Part shown: piece by piece, positions 40,456 to 49,182 of the stretch
Position numbering within the stretch: position 1 is the first letter of the stretch
Layout of the letters: every line of letters starts with the position of its first letter
NCBI GenBank assembly: GCA_003003725.1
Contig: PVWI01000002.1
Span: 1-57,707, forward strand
DNA from: a filamentous cyanobacterium Phorm 6
Lineage (GTDB): Bacteria; Cyanobacteriota; Cyanobacteriia; Cyanobacteriales; Microcoleaceae
Length of the DNA: 57,707 bases
Reading direction: 5' to 3'
Position numbers and translations under genes: made by a program
Notes under the pieces: model-generated
Told to the model about the DNA's origin: nothing
Database searches by the model: none
The model's input: the letters and a program-made list of their open reading frames with translations, nothing else

Positions 40456-43400
40456 ATGAAAATCGGTTTTCTGGATACCTACACTTGGGATTACAATATT
40501 GAAACTCCTTACCGCCAACCTTTGGGCGGCACTCAGTCGGCTATTTGTTACTTAGCTGAGGCTTTGGCTGCACAGGGAAATGAGGTATTTTTGCTCAACA
40601 ATACTTCGGAGTCGGGGATGTCGCGCGGGGTTGATTGCAGGCGCAGGGTGGTGGATAAGTCTAATTTAGAATTGCTGCGATCGCTCGATTTTTTAGTTAT
40701 AGTTAATATAGTCGGCAAAGCACTGGAAATTAAGCCGCTTTTGGGGAATCAAACTAAGTTAATTTTGTGGATTCATAACGAACCGGGCTTTGTATTTCTC
40801 CAAGGTTTTAACAACAAGCAAGAAATCAATGCTTGCGATGGTTTTGTATTTGTCAGCGACTGGCAGCGTGAGCAATTTCAGCAACGTTTTGGAATTGACT
40901 GGAATCGCTGTTGTGTTTTAAGAAATGCGATCGCACCTTGTTTTGCTAACATTTTCCCTGATCATATTTCGATCCGATCGCAAAAATCTCAACCGCCAAT
41001 TCTCGCTTACACCAGCACTCCCTTTCGCGGACTCGATATTTTATTAAAAGTTTTTCCCGAAATTCGTCAAGCTGTCCCCGGAACTAGATTGAAAGTATTT
41101 TCTAGCATGAAAGTGCACCAAATAGACGACAATGATAATCAGCTATTTTTCGGTCAACTTTACGAAGAGTGTCAGGCAACAGAAGGCGTTGAGTACATCG
41201 GTTCCATACCGCAACCCGAACTCGTGCGACAACTGCATTCAGTGGCGGTTTTAGCTTACCCGAATACCTATTCGGAAACGTCATCTATTGCCGTGATGGA
41301 GGCGATGGCAAGTGGTTGTCGGATTGTGACGAGTGAATTGGCAGCTTTGCCGGAAACAACTGCGGGATTTGCTCGTCTAGTTTCAATGGGAGGGGTGGAA
41401 AACTTGGCATCCGTAACCAATTGGAACCGTGCAGACAAACCAGATTGGGAGGGATATACAAGGCGGTTTTTAGAGGCGATAGTCGGAGTTTTAAAAGAGG
41501 GCGACGCAACTGCTGAGAATCATCTGAGACAGCAGGTAGAGTATGTAAATCGAGGGTGTGTTTGGTCTGTACGATCCCGAGAGTGGGTAGAATGGCTGAA
41601 TAGTATTAGTGTACAACCTGTAATAGTGGTAGAGCAAATGATCGCGGAGTCGTTGGTAGATTTAGAAGCAGCTCAAGCTTATTTTGTCAAGGGAAATCGG
41701 CTGAAAGATGCAGGCAGGCTTGATGAGGCGAGCGCAAATTACAAGAAAGCTTTAGAGTTTAACTGGGAAGATGCCGAATATCACAAAAAATTAGCAGAAG
41801 TTTATGTTTTGAAGGGCGAATTTGAAAGTGCGATCGCCCAATGCAACCTCGCCATCAAATTCAAACCAAATTTTGCTCCCGCTTATTTGACAATGGGCAA
41901 TGCCCTGCACGCTCAAGACAAGCTAGAAATGGCAATAGAAGCTTATTTGCAAGCTTTAAAAATTCAGCCAATTTTTGCCGAAGCTAGCGCGAATCTTGGC
42001 AGTATGTATTACAAGTTAGGGCAATTGGCACAGGCTGCAAGTCATTACCAAAAAGCTCTGGTAATTAATCCCACTTTGTGTTCGGTTAATGTGATGCTTG
42101 GCGATGTTTTGCAGCAGCAAGGCAAGTTAGATGCAGCAATTGCTTGCTATCAAAAAGTGCTGCAACTGCAACCGGGAGATGTTAATACTGCGGAGAAACT
42201 ATCGAGTTTGATCGCACAAAAACAGCGGGAAACTGCTGATAGTAATTTTATCGAATTAGAAACAGAATCAAGCGTACAACCAATATCTGTAAACAAATAT
42301 GAAGGTTACGGCTTGCAACCTTCGAGCATCAATTTGTCGCCAGCGCCTACTAATGAAAATTTAAATACTCCGTTTACAAATCCCGACGAAGTTTCCGAAC
42401 AAGTTACTTCGCTGAAGGTTCCAGATAGCGGACAAGTTGCCAATTATCAAGAAGTAGAACCGTACAAAAGACTGGCAGAAGACTGTTTAGTTCAAGGTAA
42501 GATTAAAGAGGCGATCGCAATTTGTCAGCAAGCCCTAAAAATTCGACCTGATTTCATTCATGCTTACGTAACTTTAGGCAATGCTTTGCAAGCGGAAGGC
42601 AAAATTGAAGCTGCTATTAGATCGTATTCTCAAGCCTTAGAATTGCAGCCAAATTTTGCAGAAGTGCGCGCCAATATCGGCAGTATGTATTTCAAAATGG
42701 GACGTTTGGAAGAGGCGATCGCACATTACAAGCAAGCCATCGTCCTGAGTCCAGATTTGGCAGGCGCTCACTGGAATTTAGGGAAAGTATATCACAAACA
42801 CGGTGACATCGAAGCAGCGATCGCCTGTTTTCAGAGAACATCCGAACTTAACCCCCAGCTTGTCGGTGCAGACTTTCACTTTAACCTAGCCAACCGACTT
42901 TTTACCCAAGGGAAGCGTGACGAAGCCATCGAAAGCTACGAAAAGGCGATCGCCATTAAACCAGATTGGGCCGAAGCTTACGGTAACATCGGCAGCGCGC
43001 GATCGCAACAAGGCGATCTCGATGCCGCCATCGTCAACTATCAGAAAGCTGTAGCTTTAAAGCCGGAATTAGAAGTTCTACACTTCAATTTAGGCAATTC
43101 TTTCTTGCAGCAAAACAAGTACGAAGAAGCGATTACTAATTACCAAAATACTCTGAAAATCAAGCCAGATTGGGCGGAAGTTCACGCTAACCTCGGCAGT
43201 TGTTTTTCCATGCAGGGGCGGCTGGAAGAAGCTTTAACCAGCTATCAGGAAGCTTTGCGATTAAAACCGGATAGGGCAGAGGTTTACTGCCGAATGGGAC
43301 ATATTCAGAAACAAGATAAGCCCTTGGAGGCGATCGCCCATTTTGAAAAGGCGATCGAATGTAACCCCAAACTTAGCGAAGCCCATCAACAACTCTGCGA

Positions 43401-44883
43401 CTTGCTAAGCCACTCCACCAACCTAGCCAGAGCCCGCAGCGTCGCCGACAAATACTGCGAATTCTGCGGTGACAATGCGCCAGTCATGTCAGCCACAGCC
43501 TACGTTTTTTCTTACCTACAATCAGGTGTCAGCAAACAGGCCATTCAGAAACTAGAAGAAATCGAAAAACTCTGCTACGAAAAAGTAGAAACCTTTAGCG
43601 TCATCGAACTAAAACTGCTCTATGAAATCTTTATGTTTGCAGTTTCCCACCTGCGAGATAACCGCGAAAAAAATGCCAGTTTCTACCGACTAATTGCCAA
43701 AGAATACTACCAAAAAGCGGTGCCGCAGCGCCCTTTTAACAGAATCAAATCCGCAAATCATACAGGACAAAAGCCTTTAAAAATCGGCTTCCTTTCCAAA
43801 CACTTCCGCCGCCATTCAGTAGGTTGGTGCAGCGAAGCTTTAATTCGCGAATTAAGCCGGATCACGCCCCACGTTCACCTGTACGTGACAGGTAAACTCA
43901 ACCGAGATGAAGTTACGCAACGGTTTGAAGAAATGGCGGGAAAATTTTACTGGCCCCAAAAATATCCAAACGGCTTTGCTGACGGCGGCGAAATTCTCGC
44001 CGAAGTAGTGCAAGACGATTTGGATGTTTTAATAGACTTAGACTCGATGACAGTACCGACAAATGTCGAAGTGCTGTATCAATATCCGGCGGGGATTTGC
44101 GTTTCTTGGCTAGGATTTGATGCGCCGTACATTTCAGACAATCACTACTTTCTCTGCGACGAACACACTCACCCCCCAGGCGTCGAAAAAAATTACTTAG
44201 AACAGTTAGTAAGATTGCCTGTTTGTTCGGTAGCAATTGGCGAACTGCAAAGCATTCCCGTGAATCGAGAGGCGATTAGAAATGCTCTCGGAATCGGCTT
44301 GGATCAAATGACTTATCTGTGCGTTGCCCCGGGGAGAAAAACAAATCCCGAAATGGTACAAGCTCAAGTTAAAATACTCAAAGAAGTACCCGACAGTTTG
44401 TTAATCCGCAAAGGTCAAGGCGATGCCGATGTGATTCACAGCACTTACCGCGAAGAATGCGAGATTCAGGGAGTAGACTTTGATCGAATTAAGTTTATCG
44501 GACAAACCAGAACCGAGGAAGAACATCGGGCTATTTATTATGTAGCCGACGTGCTTTTAGATTCCTATCCTTACAACGGCGGGACTCACAATTTAGAGGC
44601 TTTGTGGGCTAATTTGCCAGTAGTAACTAGATCCGGCGATCAATATCTGTCGCGGATGGGTTACGCCTTTCTCAAAAGTGCAAATCTCGATGTCGGTGCG
44701 GCGTGGAGTTGGGAGGAATACACGCAGTGGGGAGTTAAGTTTGGGCGGGATGCTGGTTTCAGAAATGCAGTAAAACAGCATTTGATTAAATCTAAGCAGC
44801 CAGAAAATCTCGCACCTTTGTGGAATCCTAAAAAGTTAGCCCAGGATATGTATGAGGTGTTTCAGAAACTGTTAGCGAAATAG
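40456..44883 (+). CDS. GT4 - TPR - SPINDLY/OGT-type (GT41) glycosyltransferase fusion
   Basis: A 1475-residue protein combines three parts. Residues 1 to about 390 are a GT-B glycosyltransferase (family 4): IGFLDTYTW, GGTQSAICYLAEALAAQGNEVFLLNN, AYTSTPFRGLDILLKVFPEIR and VMEAMASGCRIVTSELAALPE. From about 400 to 1040, two blocks of TPRs (NLGSMYYKLGQLAQAASHYQKAL types) flank a ~70-residue low-complexity linker at about 590-670. From about 1100 a GT41 domain like O-GlcNAc transferase/SPINDLY follows: PLKIGFLSKHFRRHSVGWCSEALIRELSR, VSWLGFDAPYISDNHYFLCDEHTHPP and DVLLDSYPYNGGTHNLEALWANLPVVTRSGDQYLSRMG. It probably glycosylates a polypeptide or polymer bound by the TPRs. No polymer or acceptor gene is adjacent. 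Confidence 0.9.
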   Translation: MKIGFLDTYTWDYNIETPYRQPLGGTQSAICYLAEALAAQGNEVFLLNNTSESGMSRGVDCRRRVVDKSNLELLRSLDFLVIVNIVGKALEIKPLLGNQTKLILWIHNEPGFVFLQGFNNKQEINACDGFVFVSDWQREQFQQRFGIDWNRCCVLRNAIAPCFANIFPDHISIRSQKSQPPILAYTSTPFRGLDILLKVFPEIRQAVPGTRLKVFSSMKVHQIDDNDNQLFFGQLYEECQATEGVEYIGSIPQPELVRQLHSVAVLAYPNTYSETSSIAVMEAMASGCRIVTSELAALPETTAGFARLVSMGGVENLASVTNWNRADKPDWEGYTRRFLEAIVGVLKEGDATAENHLRQQVEYVNRGCVWSVRSREWVEWLNSISVQPVIVVEQMIAESLVDLEAAQAYFVKGNRLKDAGRLDEASANYKKALEFNWEDAEYHKKLAEVYVLKGEFESAIAQCNLAIKFKPNFAPAYLTMGNALHAQDKLEMAIEAYLQALKIQPIFAEASANLGSMYYKLGQLAQAASHYQKALVINPTLCSVNVMLGDVLQQQGKLDAAIACYQKVLQLQPGDVNTAEKLSSLIAQKQRETADSNFIELETESSVQPISVNKYEGYGLQPSSINLSPAPTNENLNTPFTNPDEVSEQVTSLKVPDSGQVANYQEVEPYKRLAEDCLVQGKIKEAIAICQQALKIRPDFIHAYVTLGNALQAEGKIEAAIRSYSQALELQPNFAEVRANIGSMYFKMGRLEEAIAHYKQAIVLSPDLAGAHWNLGKVYHKHGDIEAAIACFQRTSELNPQLVGADFHFNLANRLFTQGKRDEAIESYEKAIAIKPDWAEAYGNIGSARSQQGDLDAAIVNYQKAVALKPELEVLHFNLGNSFLQQNKYEEAITNYQNTLKIKPDWAEVHANLGSCFSMQGRLEEALTSYQEALRLKPDRAEVYCRMGHIQKQDKPLEAIAHFEKAIECNPKLSEAHQQLCDLLSHSTNLARARSVADKYCEFCGDNAPVMSATAYVFSYLQSGVSKQAIQKLEEIEKLCYEKVETFSVIELKLLYEIFMFAVSHLRDNREKNASFYRLIAKEYYQKAVPQRPFNRIKSANHTGQKPLKIGFLSKHFRRHSVGWCSEALIRELSRITPHVHLYVTGKLNRDEVTQRFEEMAGKFYWPQKYPNGFADGGEILAEVVQDDLDVLIDLDSMTVPTNVEVLYQYPAGICVSWLGFDAPYISDNHYFLCDEHTHPPGVEKNYLEQLVRLPVCSVAIGELQSIPVNREAIRNALGIGLDQMTYLCVAPGRKTNPEMVQAQVKILKEVPDSLLIRKGQGDADVIHSTYREECEIQGVDFDRIKFIGQTRTEEEHRAIYYVADVLLDSYPYNGGTHNLEALWANLPVVTRSGDQYLSRMGYAFLKSANLDVGAAWSWEEYTQWGVKFGRDAGFRNAVKQHLIKSKQPENLAPLWNPKKLAQDMYEVFQKLLAK

Positions 44884-45197: not shown

Positions 45198-45246
45198 TAA
45201 CCGTTAACCGTTAACCGTTAACAACCGTCAACTTTCAACTTTCAAC
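45198..45246. repeat. CCGTTAA/CTTTCAA heptamer array
   Basis: TTAACCG units pass into CTTTCAA units and run into the 3' end of the sensor gene. Read on the minus strand the last units (GTTGAAAGTTGA) encode the final Val-Glu-Ser and stop. Confidence 0.8.
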
Positions 45247-48200
45247 TCGATCGCGCCCGCCAGACTTAGCCCGATAAAGCGCCTTATCAGCAGCTTCAAT
45301 CAGCATTTTCGGCGAATTTTGATTTTCAGAAATCGTCGCCACCCCCATGCTGAGAGTCACGGAATCGGTGACAACAGACTTGATGTGGGGAATAGCCAGA
45401 GCTTTCACACGCTGGCGGATTCCCTCAGCAACAACCTGTGCAGCCGCGATGTCGGTATTTGGCAAAATCACCCCAAATTCCTCGCCACCGTACCTAGCAG
45501 CTAAATAAATGCGTTCTGCGGGTGCGTTCGTGCAACTATCCCCGATCGCCCGCGCGACTTGCTGCAAACAAGCATCCCCAGCCTGGTGGCCGTAATTGTC
45601 GTTGTAAAGTTTAAAACAGTCAATGTCGCACATAATCAAAGACAGCGGTTCAGAAATGCTTGAGAGTTCCCATTCCCGGTTGAGCACCTCGTCAAATCGG
45701 CGGCGGTTAGCTAACTGAGTCAAACTGTCCAAATTCGCCAACCCGTCCAACCGCTGGTTAGCAGCAGCTAGCTGCTGGTAAAGTAAAGATTGTTCGATCG
45801 CGATCGCCACTTGAGTAGCCAACTGACTCAGCAAATCCATATCAAACTGCTGCCACTCGCGGGGTGCCGAACAGTGGTGGGCAATCAGCAAACCCCACAA
45901 CTTCGGTACTTGACAAGAAGGATTGCCATCGCGGTGTTCGATTCCCTGCTGCACGATGGGCACAACTAAATTCGCTTTCACCTGACACTCTGCCAAAAAA
46001 TTGACGTGGCACTCAGAAAAATTAGAAGTGTGAATGTCCTCGACCGCTCGAATTCTGTTCTTCAAATACTGTCCGACATAACTGTTAGCAAAACAGCAAT
46101 CCTCTACAGCCATACCCGTCAGCGGCATCCATTCTTCCCCCACCGACTCCACCACCACATCTCCGTTCCAATCGGGTCGGAAGCGGAAAATAATCACGCG
46201 ATCGGTTGCCAAAAATTCCCGCACTTCGGCTACTGTAGTATTGAGAATATCTTCGATATCCAGAGAAGAACGGATGCGCGATTGAATCTGCGCGATCAGG
46301 CGTTCCCGTTCTACCTGCTGCCGCAAAGCTACTTGGGCTTGCTTGCTTTGAGTAATGTCCCTACCTTCGGGCAGCAGCAATACTACTTTGCCAGTTTCAT
46401 CCGCGACGGGTTTGAGAGAAAAATCAACAGTTGCCGTCCGATTTGCACCTTGAAGTTCCACTTCATAGCGGACAAATTCACCTTTTGCCGATCGACAAAT
46501 CGCCTCTTGCAACTGTTCTCGAACTTCCGGAGAATCTCCCCACCACGGCAAAAGCCAAAACGGGCGGTTTGCCACATCCCGCAGCTTAATTCCCGCGAAA
46601 TCTAGAGAAGTTTGGTTAGCTTCCAGCAGAGTGCCGTCCGGATTCAACAAGCTAACAAATTGGAACGAAGAATCAAAAATTGCCCGAAAGCGCCGTTGAG
46701 AATCTCCCAACATTGCCGTCACCTTTTCGCGAGAAGTAATATCGCGGAAGCGCCACACCCTGCCAATAATATTTTGTCCGACTCGAATCGGCTGCGTGTA
46801 GCGTTCAAAAGTCCGACCGTCTTTAAAATCGAGAATATCGCAGCCTTCAGACTCCGCATCGCTATAAATTTCTTTAGTTCTCTGCAAAAAAGCCCTCGGA
46901 TCTCTAACTTGCTTGGCGAGAAAAGTCAGCCGCAGCGTTCGATCCATCGAATTTCTAACTTCTTCATAAATTCCCCACATTTGGACTAACTTTTCGTTAA
47001 AACTAATCAGTTCTCCAGACGTAGTAACGGCGAGAATGCCGTCTGCCGTTGCTTCCAGAGTAGCGTGCAGCAAAGAGCGCGATCGCTCTAATTCCGCTGC
47101 TATTAACTTGCGTTCGGTGAGGTTTCGCACTGCTTTCACCTGCACTAAACGACCCTCGCAAATTACGAATTTACTGCGAACGTCAGCAGGAAAAGCCGTC
47201 CCGTCCCGCCTCAGAAAAATCGTTTCGCAGACTGTATTGCTGCTTGCAGAAATCATTTGTGGCGCTACTTTATAAGATTTTGGCGACAGCAGTTCCAGCA
47301 AACTCATTCCCGCCATTTCCGCAGGTTTGTAACCGAACATTTCGGCAAAATCGCTGTTGACGCTCAGTATTGTGTCGCGGTTAGCGACGGCAACTGCTTC
47401 AAAATAAGCTTCGCATTCGAGCAAGCTGGCTGCTGTGCTGCTGCCATTTTCACTGGAATAGCTATTGTTCATTAGCTGTTGCATTTGCGTATTTGCCGAA
47501 TACAAAGCTGCCATTGCCTGTCGATACATAGCAGTGCGTTTTTCGACTTTTATGGTGAGGCGTTCCCTAGATTCTTGCAGTTCTTTTTCGACTCGCATTA
47601 AATCGGTGATATCTACTGCAAATACGATCACGCCAACAACTTGACCAGTTTCGTCGCGGTAAGGTATTTTATCTGTCCGCACCCAGCATTTTTGACCGGA
47701 TGCAGTTGGCAACAGTTCGACTTTTCCCAGTTTGGGAACGCCAGAATTGATTACTTCTAAATCTTCTAAATAATATTGCTCTGCTTCGTCTGGATAGATT
47801 TCATAAAAAGATTTTCCTTCTAATTGAGCTGCGGGCAAACCTCTCGATGCAGCGGCGGCTTGATTAATTCGCAGCAGGCGGCTTTCGGTATCTTTGTACC
47901 AAATCATTGCCGGCACGGAATCAAAAATAATTTGTTGTTCTTGGTGTTGTCGGCGCATTTCTGCTTCTACTTGTTTTCTTTTGATGATTTCTTCTTGCAG
48001 TGTTTTGTTAGCTTTTTTGAGTTCTGCCGTGCGTTTTTCTACTCTTTCTTCTAGTTGGTCATAGTATTGACTCAGCAAATTTTGCTGCTGTTCGCGCCGC
48101 ATTGCTTCTAATTTAAAGCTTTCGGTAGCTGACAAACTTGACGATACAAAGTCTGCTAATATTTGGGTTAATTCCTGTTCTTCTTCCGTCCACTCACTGC

Positions 48201-49182
48201 GGTCACTTTGGCGTTCGAGGCTGACTATTCCGGCCATTTGATCTGCCAGCATAATTGGTACGTTTAACAGGGCAGTTCTGCGACCTGTGGCAAAATAAAG
48301 ACTAGCAAGTTCTCGGGTTCTCGGGTCATTTTGTGCGGCCATCGTGGCGATCGTACTTTGAGATTTTAAGGCTTGAAAATACGCGGGACAGTCGGCTGCT
48401 GTGATGATTATTTGTACTGAATGCAGTTTCGTATTATATTCGTAAAAATCAATGCAGTGAAGCTGTGTTTTGTCTTCGCCATATAGCCAAATGCTGGCTC
48501 GATCGCAGTTGATAACACTGACAGCGGTTTCTGTGACTTCGCGGATGAATTGTTCTATATTATTGCGTTCTTTAACTTGACTTTTAGCTAATTTTGCGAT
48601 CGCCAAAGTAGGGCTGCGCCAATTTCCTCTCTGCTTGGGCGGCGCACTTACGGGTGAAGCCACCTTAGCCTTAATTTCTTGACAAACTAACAGTACAGCC
48701 GGCCGTAGGAAATTGGTAATTGACCGACCGTTGCTATCTTGCTCTATTTTCCAATCTACCGCAGGCATTCCGTGCGCTGTTGCTTTTACGAAGATAATGC
48801 TACCGTCTTTGCAAGTCAACTGACCTTCCCAAGAGGCAACTTTTGAACTTCGCGTACCGTTTTTAGGATATGCTAATCCGGCAAATTCTGCCTGCATTTG
48901 CCCTTGATTTTCGCAGTAAAATATGTTAAAGATTGAATGAGAAATTAATTCGTGCGACCTGTAGGCAAGACGAGATTCGCCGAATTGATTTAGCGAAAAA
49001 ACTCTTCCCAAAGCATCTAGAACGAAGTAAATACCCGGAAAATTGTCGTAGAGTGTTCGATACCAATCCTGTTCAACTTGTTGGCTAGACGAATATTTCG
49101 CTACCGCGAGTTCATCGCCCGTACCGGTCAAGTGAGAATTGTTGGTTTCTGAGTTATTTGAATTACTTTTTTTAGCAAACAC
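45235..49182 (-). CDS. PAS/GAF/GGDEF sensor diguanylate cyclase with a candidate cyanobacteriochrome GAF
   Basis: The 1315-residue protein reads, in order: PAS (about 38-160), GAF (about 205-350), a coiled coil (about 365-415), PAS (about 420-540), three more PAS (about 595-960), a second GAF (about 970-1130) and a GGDEF domain (about 1150-1315). The GGDEF domain has RYGGEEFGVILPN, so it should make cyclic di-GMP. The I-site RxxD position is not conserved (ERIY). The second GAF contains D1028-C1029-C1030-F1031 and C1058-H1059. This DXCF motif plus a canonical Cys-His 28 residues later, with ANLVVPI and LWGLLIAHHCSAPREW, is the pattern of DXCF cyanobacteriochromes. Light sensing is inferred, not proven. 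No transmembrane helix is evident. Confidence 0.9.
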   Translation of the reverse strand: MFAKKSNSNNSETNNSHLTGTGDELAVAKYSSSQQVEQDWYRTLYDNFPGIYFVLDALGRVFSLNQFGESRLAYRSHELISHSIFNIFYCENQGQMQAEFAGLAYPKNGTRSSKVASWEGQLTCKDGSIIFVKATAHGMPAVDWKIEQDSNGRSITNFLRPAVLLVCQEIKAKVASPVSAPPKQRGNWRSPTLAIAKLAKSQVKERNNIEQFIREVTETAVSVINCDRASIWLYGEDKTQLHCIDFYEYNTKLHSVQIIITAADCPAYFQALKSQSTIATMAAQNDPRTRELASLYFATGRRTALLNVPIMLADQMAGIVSLERQSDRSEWTEEEQELTQILADFVSSSLSATESFKLEAMRREQQQNLLSQYYDQLEERVEKRTAELKKANKTLQEEIIKRKQVEAEMRRQHQEQQIIFDSVPAMIWYKDTESRLLRINQAAAASRGLPAAQLEGKSFYEIYPDEAEQYYLEDLEVINSGVPKLGKVELLPTASGQKCWVRTDKIPYRDETGQVVGVIVFAVDITDLMRVEKELQESRERLTIKVEKRTAMYRQAMAALYSANTQMQQLMNNSYSSENGSSTAASLLECEAYFEAVAVANRDTILSVNSDFAEMFGYKPAEMAGMSLLELLSPKSYKVAPQMISASSNTVCETIFLRRDGTAFPADVRSKFVICEGRLVQVKAVRNLTERKLIAAELERSRSLLHATLEATADGILAVTTSGELISFNEKLVQMWGIYEEVRNSMDRTLRLTFLAKQVRDPRAFLQRTKEIYSDAESEGCDILDFKDGRTFERYTQPIRVGQNIIGRVWRFRDITSREKVTAMLGDSQRRFRAIFDSSFQFVSLLNPDGTLLEANQTSLDFAGIKLRDVANRPFWLLPWWGDSPEVREQLQEAICRSAKGEFVRYEVELQGANRTATVDFSLKPVADETGKVVLLLPEGRDITQSKQAQVALRQQVERERLIAQIQSRIRSSLDIEDILNTTVAEVREFLATDRVIIFRFRPDWNGDVVVESVGEEWMPLTGMAVEDCCFANSYVGQYLKNRIRAVEDIHTSNFSECHVNFLAECQVKANLVVPIVQQGIEHRDGNPSCQVPKLWGLLIAHHCSAPREWQQFDMDLLSQLATQVAIAIEQSLLYQQLAAANQRLDGLANLDSLTQLANRRRFDEVLNREWELSSISEPLSLIMCDIDCFKLYNDNYGHQAGDACLQQVARAIGDSCTNAPAERIYLAARYGGEEFGVILPNTDIAAAQVVAEGIRQRVKALAIPHIKSVVTDSVTLSMGVATISENQNSPKMLIEAADKALYRAKSGGRDRVES

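Follow-up and report, generated by a model that had tools for sequence, protein, structure and literature searches.

The second GAF domain (GAF2) of a 1,315-residue sensor encoded in the window, the whole 57,707-nucleotide stretch of contig PVWI01000002.1 analysed here, is a cyanobacteriochrome (CBCR)-type GAF domain by sequence kinship and predicted fold, and it carries two adjacent cysteines within a DXCF motif. Here we establish the sequence, orthology, conservation and domain order of this sensor, together with the genes for bilin supply in its genome. Its sequence features make it likely that the protein is a DXCF-type, bilin-binding, soluble diguanylate cyclase regulated by light, of the SesA (Tlr0924) kind. 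That protein class is already known; to judge from the sequences compared, it is the clade-wide set of cysteines that is new.

The sensor adds a predicted soluble light-regulated cyclase that lacks the RxxD motif to the Microcoleus/Tychonema group. Its clade, in which a cysteine is fixed at the X position predicted to lie beside ring A of the bilin, and the sister proteins, which keep DPCF, form a natural mutant series that lets the effect of X on ligation, phycoviolobilin (PVB) formation and redox sensitivity be asked directly. The features discussed below are collected in Table 1.

Table 1. Features of the sensor, with positions in the window and residue numbers in the protein
Feature	Position	Strand	Residues	Remarks
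Sensor open reading frame	45235..49182	minus	1315 aa	GTG start
N-terminal PAS	48643..49095	minus	30-180	sub-threshold Pfam match
GAF1	47983..48645	minus		Pfam 3.8e-13
Four PAS segments	46288..47985	minus	about 400-965	Pfam
GAF2, CBCR-type	45796..46260	minus	975-1129	Pfam PF01590
D1028-C1029-C1030-F1031	46090..46101	minus	1028-1031	Cys in the X place of DXCF; the second (C10) cysteine is predicted to be C1030
C1058-H1059	46006..46011	minus	1058-1059	canonical chromophore cysteine, then His
C1066	45985..45987	minus	1066	canonical Cys +8; common to the sister proteins
C1090	45913..45915	minus	1090	enlarged loop between LVVPI and LWGLL
GGDEF diguanylate cyclase domain	45247..45738	minus	1149-1312	Pfam, TIGR00254
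GGEEF active-site motif	45475..45489	minus	1232-1236

Kinship of GAF2

The initial annotation had assigned a DXCF-type CBCR signature to positions 45811-46290, a span that corresponds to residues 965-1124 and falls in the second GAF domain. A phmmer search of PDB sequences with GAF2 gave 79 matches, headed by 6oap (3.3e-48), 8k9o (9.2e-35), which is RcaE by its structure title, miRFP670nano (2.4e-34) and TePixJ 3vv4 (9.9e-32). Among the best 60 of these 79 matches, CBCR GAF domains and proteins derived from them, as judged by their names, come first, and phytochrome-family chains come after. Ranked above TePixJ are 6oap, a dual sensor kinase whose Pg state absorbs green light, RcaE and several near-infrared fluorescent proteins, none of which is a blue/green sensor. 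An AlphaFold2 model of GAF2, built from 35 alignment rows and containing no chromophore, reached a mean pLDDT of 85.6. Foldseek matched this model to 6oap (3.5e-21), to 4fof (5.2e-18), which is the blue-absorbing state of TePixJ, and to 3w2z (9.7e-18), identified as AnPixJg2 in PMC11284453. In an IQ-TREE tree of 121 rows, the window's GAF2 falls in a 28-row clade (100/100) with the domains of two shorter proteins, L089 and L090, as sisters (97/85), and RcaE groups with three GAF domains of this genome (100/99). Sequence, predicted fold and tree all place GAF2 among CBCR GAF domains, as the initial annotation had anticipated, and none of them sets it outside.

The tree also bears on a quite unlikely reading, that GAF2 is an XRG-lineage domain with a regained second cysteine, whose chemistry and colours may differ from those of blue/green sensors. 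Reacquisition of a second cysteine has been reported (PMC11284453), and both the window clade and the XRG clade lie inside one 107-row group of the free tree. Forcing the two into one clade costs 22.8 log units and is not rejected (p-AU 0.243), in a test that was chosen after the tree had been seen, on a tree with unsettled bootstrap and several long rows, TePixJ included. Against this origin, the free tree gathers AnPixJg2, NpR6012g4 and Slr1393g3 with two GAF domains of this genome into a separate XRG clade (100/100), and the sister proteins have plain DPCF. Moreover, the Trp that marks XRG domains, at the second position ahead of the Asp (WXDXXL; PMC11284453), is absent: the window's GAF2 has V1026 at this place, and Trp occurs there in no ortholog row among those listed. 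Because the XRG grouping is not formally rejected, the DXCF label draws less on the tree than on the motif, the spacing and the absence of the Trp.

Conservation of the cysteine motif

Cys1030 and Cys1058 are separated by 28 residues, and the same spacing is found in the PDB sequence of TePixJ. The DCCF motif, the Cys-His pair and the agreement with TePixJ, all noted in the initial annotation, are borne out by the open reading frame and the PDB sequence. Both of the stretches previously noted downstream, ANLVVPI and LWGLLIAHHCSAPREW, were also found; LVVPI and LWGLL form the last two long strands of the GAF2 model.

A scan of genome contigs identified 49 relatives of the sensor, 20 of which are orthologs at 83-97% identity, with the next best relative at 53%. 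The records of these orthologs are assigned to Microcoleus, Tychonema, Lyngbya, others and MAGs. In the alignment, DCCF, CH, a cysteine at canonical +8 and a loop cysteine before LWGLL are present in all 20. Among 29 whole genomes of the genus, its own included, the sensor is found as a single copy in 28; the 29th (G002, 92% complete) has no ortholog and nothing above 52%. The copies from these 28 genomes, the window's among them, make up the 28 orthologous sequences considered from here on, a set that overlaps with the 20 orthologs: 19/20 are apparently shared, and L027 has the same GAF2 sequence as L028, so that the two sets are not independent.

Across the 28 sequences, 90 of the 171 GAF2 columns are invariant. 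Asp1028, Cys1029, Cys1030, Phe1031, Cys1058 and His1059 are each unchanged in 28/28, although every one of their codons apart from that of Phe1031 shows synonymous changes, and six cysteines (1029, 1030, 1058, 1066, 1090 and 1104) are invariant throughout. Both cysteine codons are in use at four of the six (TGC/TGT 21/7 at Cys1029, 1/27 at Cys1030, 12/16 at Cys1058 and 3/25 at Cys1090), indicating that the residue is held there while the codon drifts; Cys1066 and Cys1104 are encoded by TGT alone. The motif is not a chance run of cysteines, because the best PDB matches of the domain are CBCRs or CBCR-derived proteins and because its invariance is accompanied by synonymous codon changes, the latter ruling out such a run. 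In the ortholog of one genome (G009; L081, also seen as L026), a TAG interrupts the reading frame near the end of GAF2, ahead of the cyclase.

The same conservation makes it very unlikely that GAF2 no longer binds a bilin and merely passes signals from the PAS array to the cyclase. In favour of that reading, CBCR-like GAF domains are numerous in the genome, and some of those retrieved (L113, L117, L123 and L124) lack the canonical cysteine. Unlike these degenerate paralogues, GAF2 keeps the Asp, the second cysteine, the canonical cysteine and the His in 28/28 sequences.

Distribution of the cysteine set

We placed these cysteines in a census of 188 distinct CBCR-like GAF domains, of which 137 have an Asp or Glu, a second cysteine and a canonical cysteine. 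The remaining 51, without [D/E]xC or without the canonical cysteine, were excluded, and typical XRG domains drop out with them. The 188 domains come from loci chosen for their closeness to the query and lean to near relatives rather than representing a random draw of CBCRs; one candidate survey scored at most 13 candidates per genome and listed part of them. The residue at X in the 137 domains is Pro in 55, Cys in 28, Arg in 13, Ser in 10, Thr in 9, Asn in 7, His in 4 and another in 11. All 28 domains with Cys at X are orthologs of the window's sensor. The cysteine that the initial annotation had called unusual at this position is therefore real and clade-specific, occurring in 28/28 orthologous sequences versus 0/109 other dual-Cys domains sampled. 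A cysteine at +8, the position of Cys1066, is found in two of these 109 domains, L089 and L090, and 103 of the 109 have Phe or Leu there. A loop cysteine is not unique to the clade, since 8/109 have some cysteine in the loop.

Outside the 137, two non-orthologous CBCR-like GAF domains, L099 (in G113) and L157 (in G095), carry DCYF, so Cys at X is not without parallel in CBCR-like domains. With Tyr in the place of the second cysteine, these two are possibly a dual-Cys type in which the thiol has shifted by one residue.

The sister proteins L089, L090 and L214 (714-733 aa) belong to the neighbouring genus g2 and have DPCF plus the +8 cysteine and no loop cysteine. The +8 cysteine was therefore probably acquired earlier and the X and loop cysteines later, a direction suggested by tree position. 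By Pfam, L089 and L214 consist of PAS, PAS, GAF and GGDEF: they lack GAF1, and one PAS separates the N-terminal PAS from the CBCR domain; the N-terminal PAS of L089 scores above the Pfam cut-off, unlike the homologous segment of the window's protein. L089 aligns with residues 942-1313 of the window's protein at 63% identity over 382 columns and with residues 1-184 at 34% over 187 columns. The two proteins thus have the PAS head and the CBCR-cyclase tail in common, and the GAF1-PAS region in between is what differs from one genus to the other.

The gain of cysteines close to the bilin is one way in which CBCRs have diversified (PMC11284453). A search of the open-licence literature found no paper that pairs DCCF with a cyanobacteriochrome, and the motif may be described outside open-licence papers. 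None of the literature matches listed on thiol oxidation, on CBCRs with redox or disulfide chemistry, or on vicinal, adjacent, tandem or third cysteines concerned DCCF.

The vicinal cysteines raise the unlikely prospect, as an extension of the preferred reading, of a redox switch at Cys1029-Cys1030 through which the protein would report light and redox together. Were this improbable switch to operate, a disulfide, or Cys1029 replacing Cys1030, would block the normal addition to C10 and leave the sensor colour-shifted or locked. The pair is invariant in 28/28 orthologous sequences and absent from 109/109 other dual-Cys domains, codons 1029 and 1030 show synonymous and no replacing changes, and Cys1066 and Cys1090 are kept too. 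On the other hand, Cys1029 may be kept simply for its small size close to ring A, 90/171 GAF2 columns are invariant anyway, and disulfides between adjacent residues are strained, which counts against a switch of this kind. We consider it doubtful that the orthologs make up a genus-wide CBCR subclass in which this vicinal dithiol, possibly with Cys1066 and Cys1090, renders the bilin photocycle redox-dependent; if they did, a synthesis of c-di-GMP free of RxxD inhibition would need light of the right colour as well as reducing conditions inside the cell.

Domain architecture and cyclase output

Pfam resolves the sensor into PAS, GAF1, four PAS, GAF2 and GGDEF, in that order. GAF1, situated between the first and second PAS, was not picked up by the CBCR profile; within the sensor, only GAF2 passed the profile search. 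The earlier count of five PAS domains holds in part: three of the four middle segments lie above the Pfam cut-off, and two segments, at residues 30-180 and 700-830, are sub-threshold. The predicted lack of a membrane anchor was confirmed, as no transmembrane stretch is visible in the sensor and the highest 19-residue Kyte-Doolittle mean is 1.5. An AlphaFold model of residues 1-971 was set aside at a mean pLDDT of 42.6. Two PAS segments within residues 690-972 (window positions 46267-47115, minus strand) match part of NF045595, a model for the sensor kinase of scytonemin biosynthesis; the score of 124.9 bits is far under the whole-protein cut-off of 865.

GAF2 leads directly into the GGDEF domain (PF00990, 4.5e-48), which carries GGEEF and the stretch CDIDCFKLYND, presumably the active-site pattern of GGDEF domains. 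Consistent with the initial annotation, GGEEF is intact and the I-site is degenerate, with E1223 and Y1226 in place of the Arg and Asp of RxxD. RxxD is also absent from 18/18 ortholog rows with GGEEF among those listed, all of which have Glu and Tyr, and from L089, L090 and L214. With this motif lost, feedback through the I-site would not be expected. Cysteines 1185 and 1189 of the GGDEF domain flank Asp-Ile-Asp (CDIDCFK); they are invariant in 18/18 full-length rows and found also in L089, L090 and L214.

Bilin supply and proposed mechanism

The genome encodes PcyA (NF002760, 333 bits against an NCBIfam cut-off of 206), one heme oxygenase and two reductases of the phycoerythrobilin pathway, indicating that phycocyanobilin (PCB) should be available. 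In DXCF domains, the bilin is attached through the canonical cysteine and the second cysteine adds to C10; typical members bind PVB (PMC11284453). Aligned through the motif Asp, the X position corresponds to Thr292 of AnPixJg2 and Val1018 of MCC3606390g2, both named as mutants in PMC11284453, where Val1018 is described as lying near ring A and helping PCB-to-PVB isomerisation. The distance from the motif Asp to the canonical cysteine is 30 residues both in AnPixJg2 and in the window. Cys1029 plausibly lies in the bilin pocket.

From these features we infer that GAF2 binds a bilin, and likewise the colours and sign of the response, the route of the signal and what Cys1029, Cys1066 and Cys1090 contribute. 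Cys1058 would attach PCB at ring A, and Cys1030 would add reversibly to C10 to produce a dark state that absorbs blue or violet light. A photon would convert this dark state to a longer-wave state, with formation of PVB likely. The signal would then run through the helix that follows GAF2, reach the GGDEF dimer directly and set c-di-GMP synthesis, which would most likely go up in blue light, as in SesA. The upstream PAS domains and GAF1 may provide other inputs or dimerisation of the protein, and Cys1029, near ring A, may modify the pocket, either by tuning it or by assisting Cys1030. Counting against the proposed mechanism, a cysteine beside the second cysteine could disturb ligation.

Comparison with known systems

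SesA has its CBCR GAF domain directly ahead of GGDEF and has a membrane anchor. The window's sensor differs from it in having five PAS segments and GAF1 before the CBCR domain and no transmembrane stretch; its own X residue is Cys. SesA, from Thermosynechococcus, is a blue-light-activated CBCR diguanylate cyclase with PVB (PMC5871770, PMC8846402). Its I-site has RxxD, and it is inhibited by its product (PMC5871770), whereas the window's sensor has lost RxxD.

The TePixJ GAF domain (3vv4, 4fof and 4glq), whose PDB name points to a chemotaxis-type protein and which is 39-41% identical to GAF2, resembles it in the equally spaced DXCF and CH motifs and in the fold match given above, but has Pro at X, Leu at the 1066 position and no loop insertion.

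The insert-Cys CBCRs Mbr3854g4 and NpF2164g3 share with GAF2 an extra cysteine in a loop insertion. As described in PMC5240096, the insert cysteine of such proteins precedes the DXCF position, where the two UG proteins have Tyr-Leu. In GAF2, by contrast, the loop cysteine Cys1090 comes after the canonical Cys1058 and the second cysteine lies within DXCF. An insert-Cys identity for GAF2 is ruled out on that description, since its loop follows the canonical cysteine instead of preceding it.

Neighbouring genes and related loci

At the 20 ortholog loci, the genes beside the sensor encode, within the flanks, GH38 (18 loci), a glycosyltransferase-TPR protein (10), cytochrome b561 (5) and an rpiA-like protein (1), and within these flanks they suggest no function for the sensor. 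The glycosyltransferase-TPR protein of the window (positions 40456-44883, plus strand) has 1,475 residues, with an N-terminal group-1 glycosyltransferase match, a long TPR array and a C-terminal family-41 match.

The sensor's own genome (G000) gave 40 matches to GAF2 at E <= 0.001, some of which are pieces of one domain, and so holds many CBCR-like GAF domains. A separate family of proteins with a CBCR-like GAF domain, about 550-600 aa where complete, is found at L031-L034, L036, L037, L039, L043, L044 and L045-L051. In the GAF domain of this family the motif is lost (ALAVSC-type) and a very long loop is present, and at L031-L034, L036, L037, L039, L043 and L044 the family member is encoded close to a large CBCR sensor, on the opposite strand.
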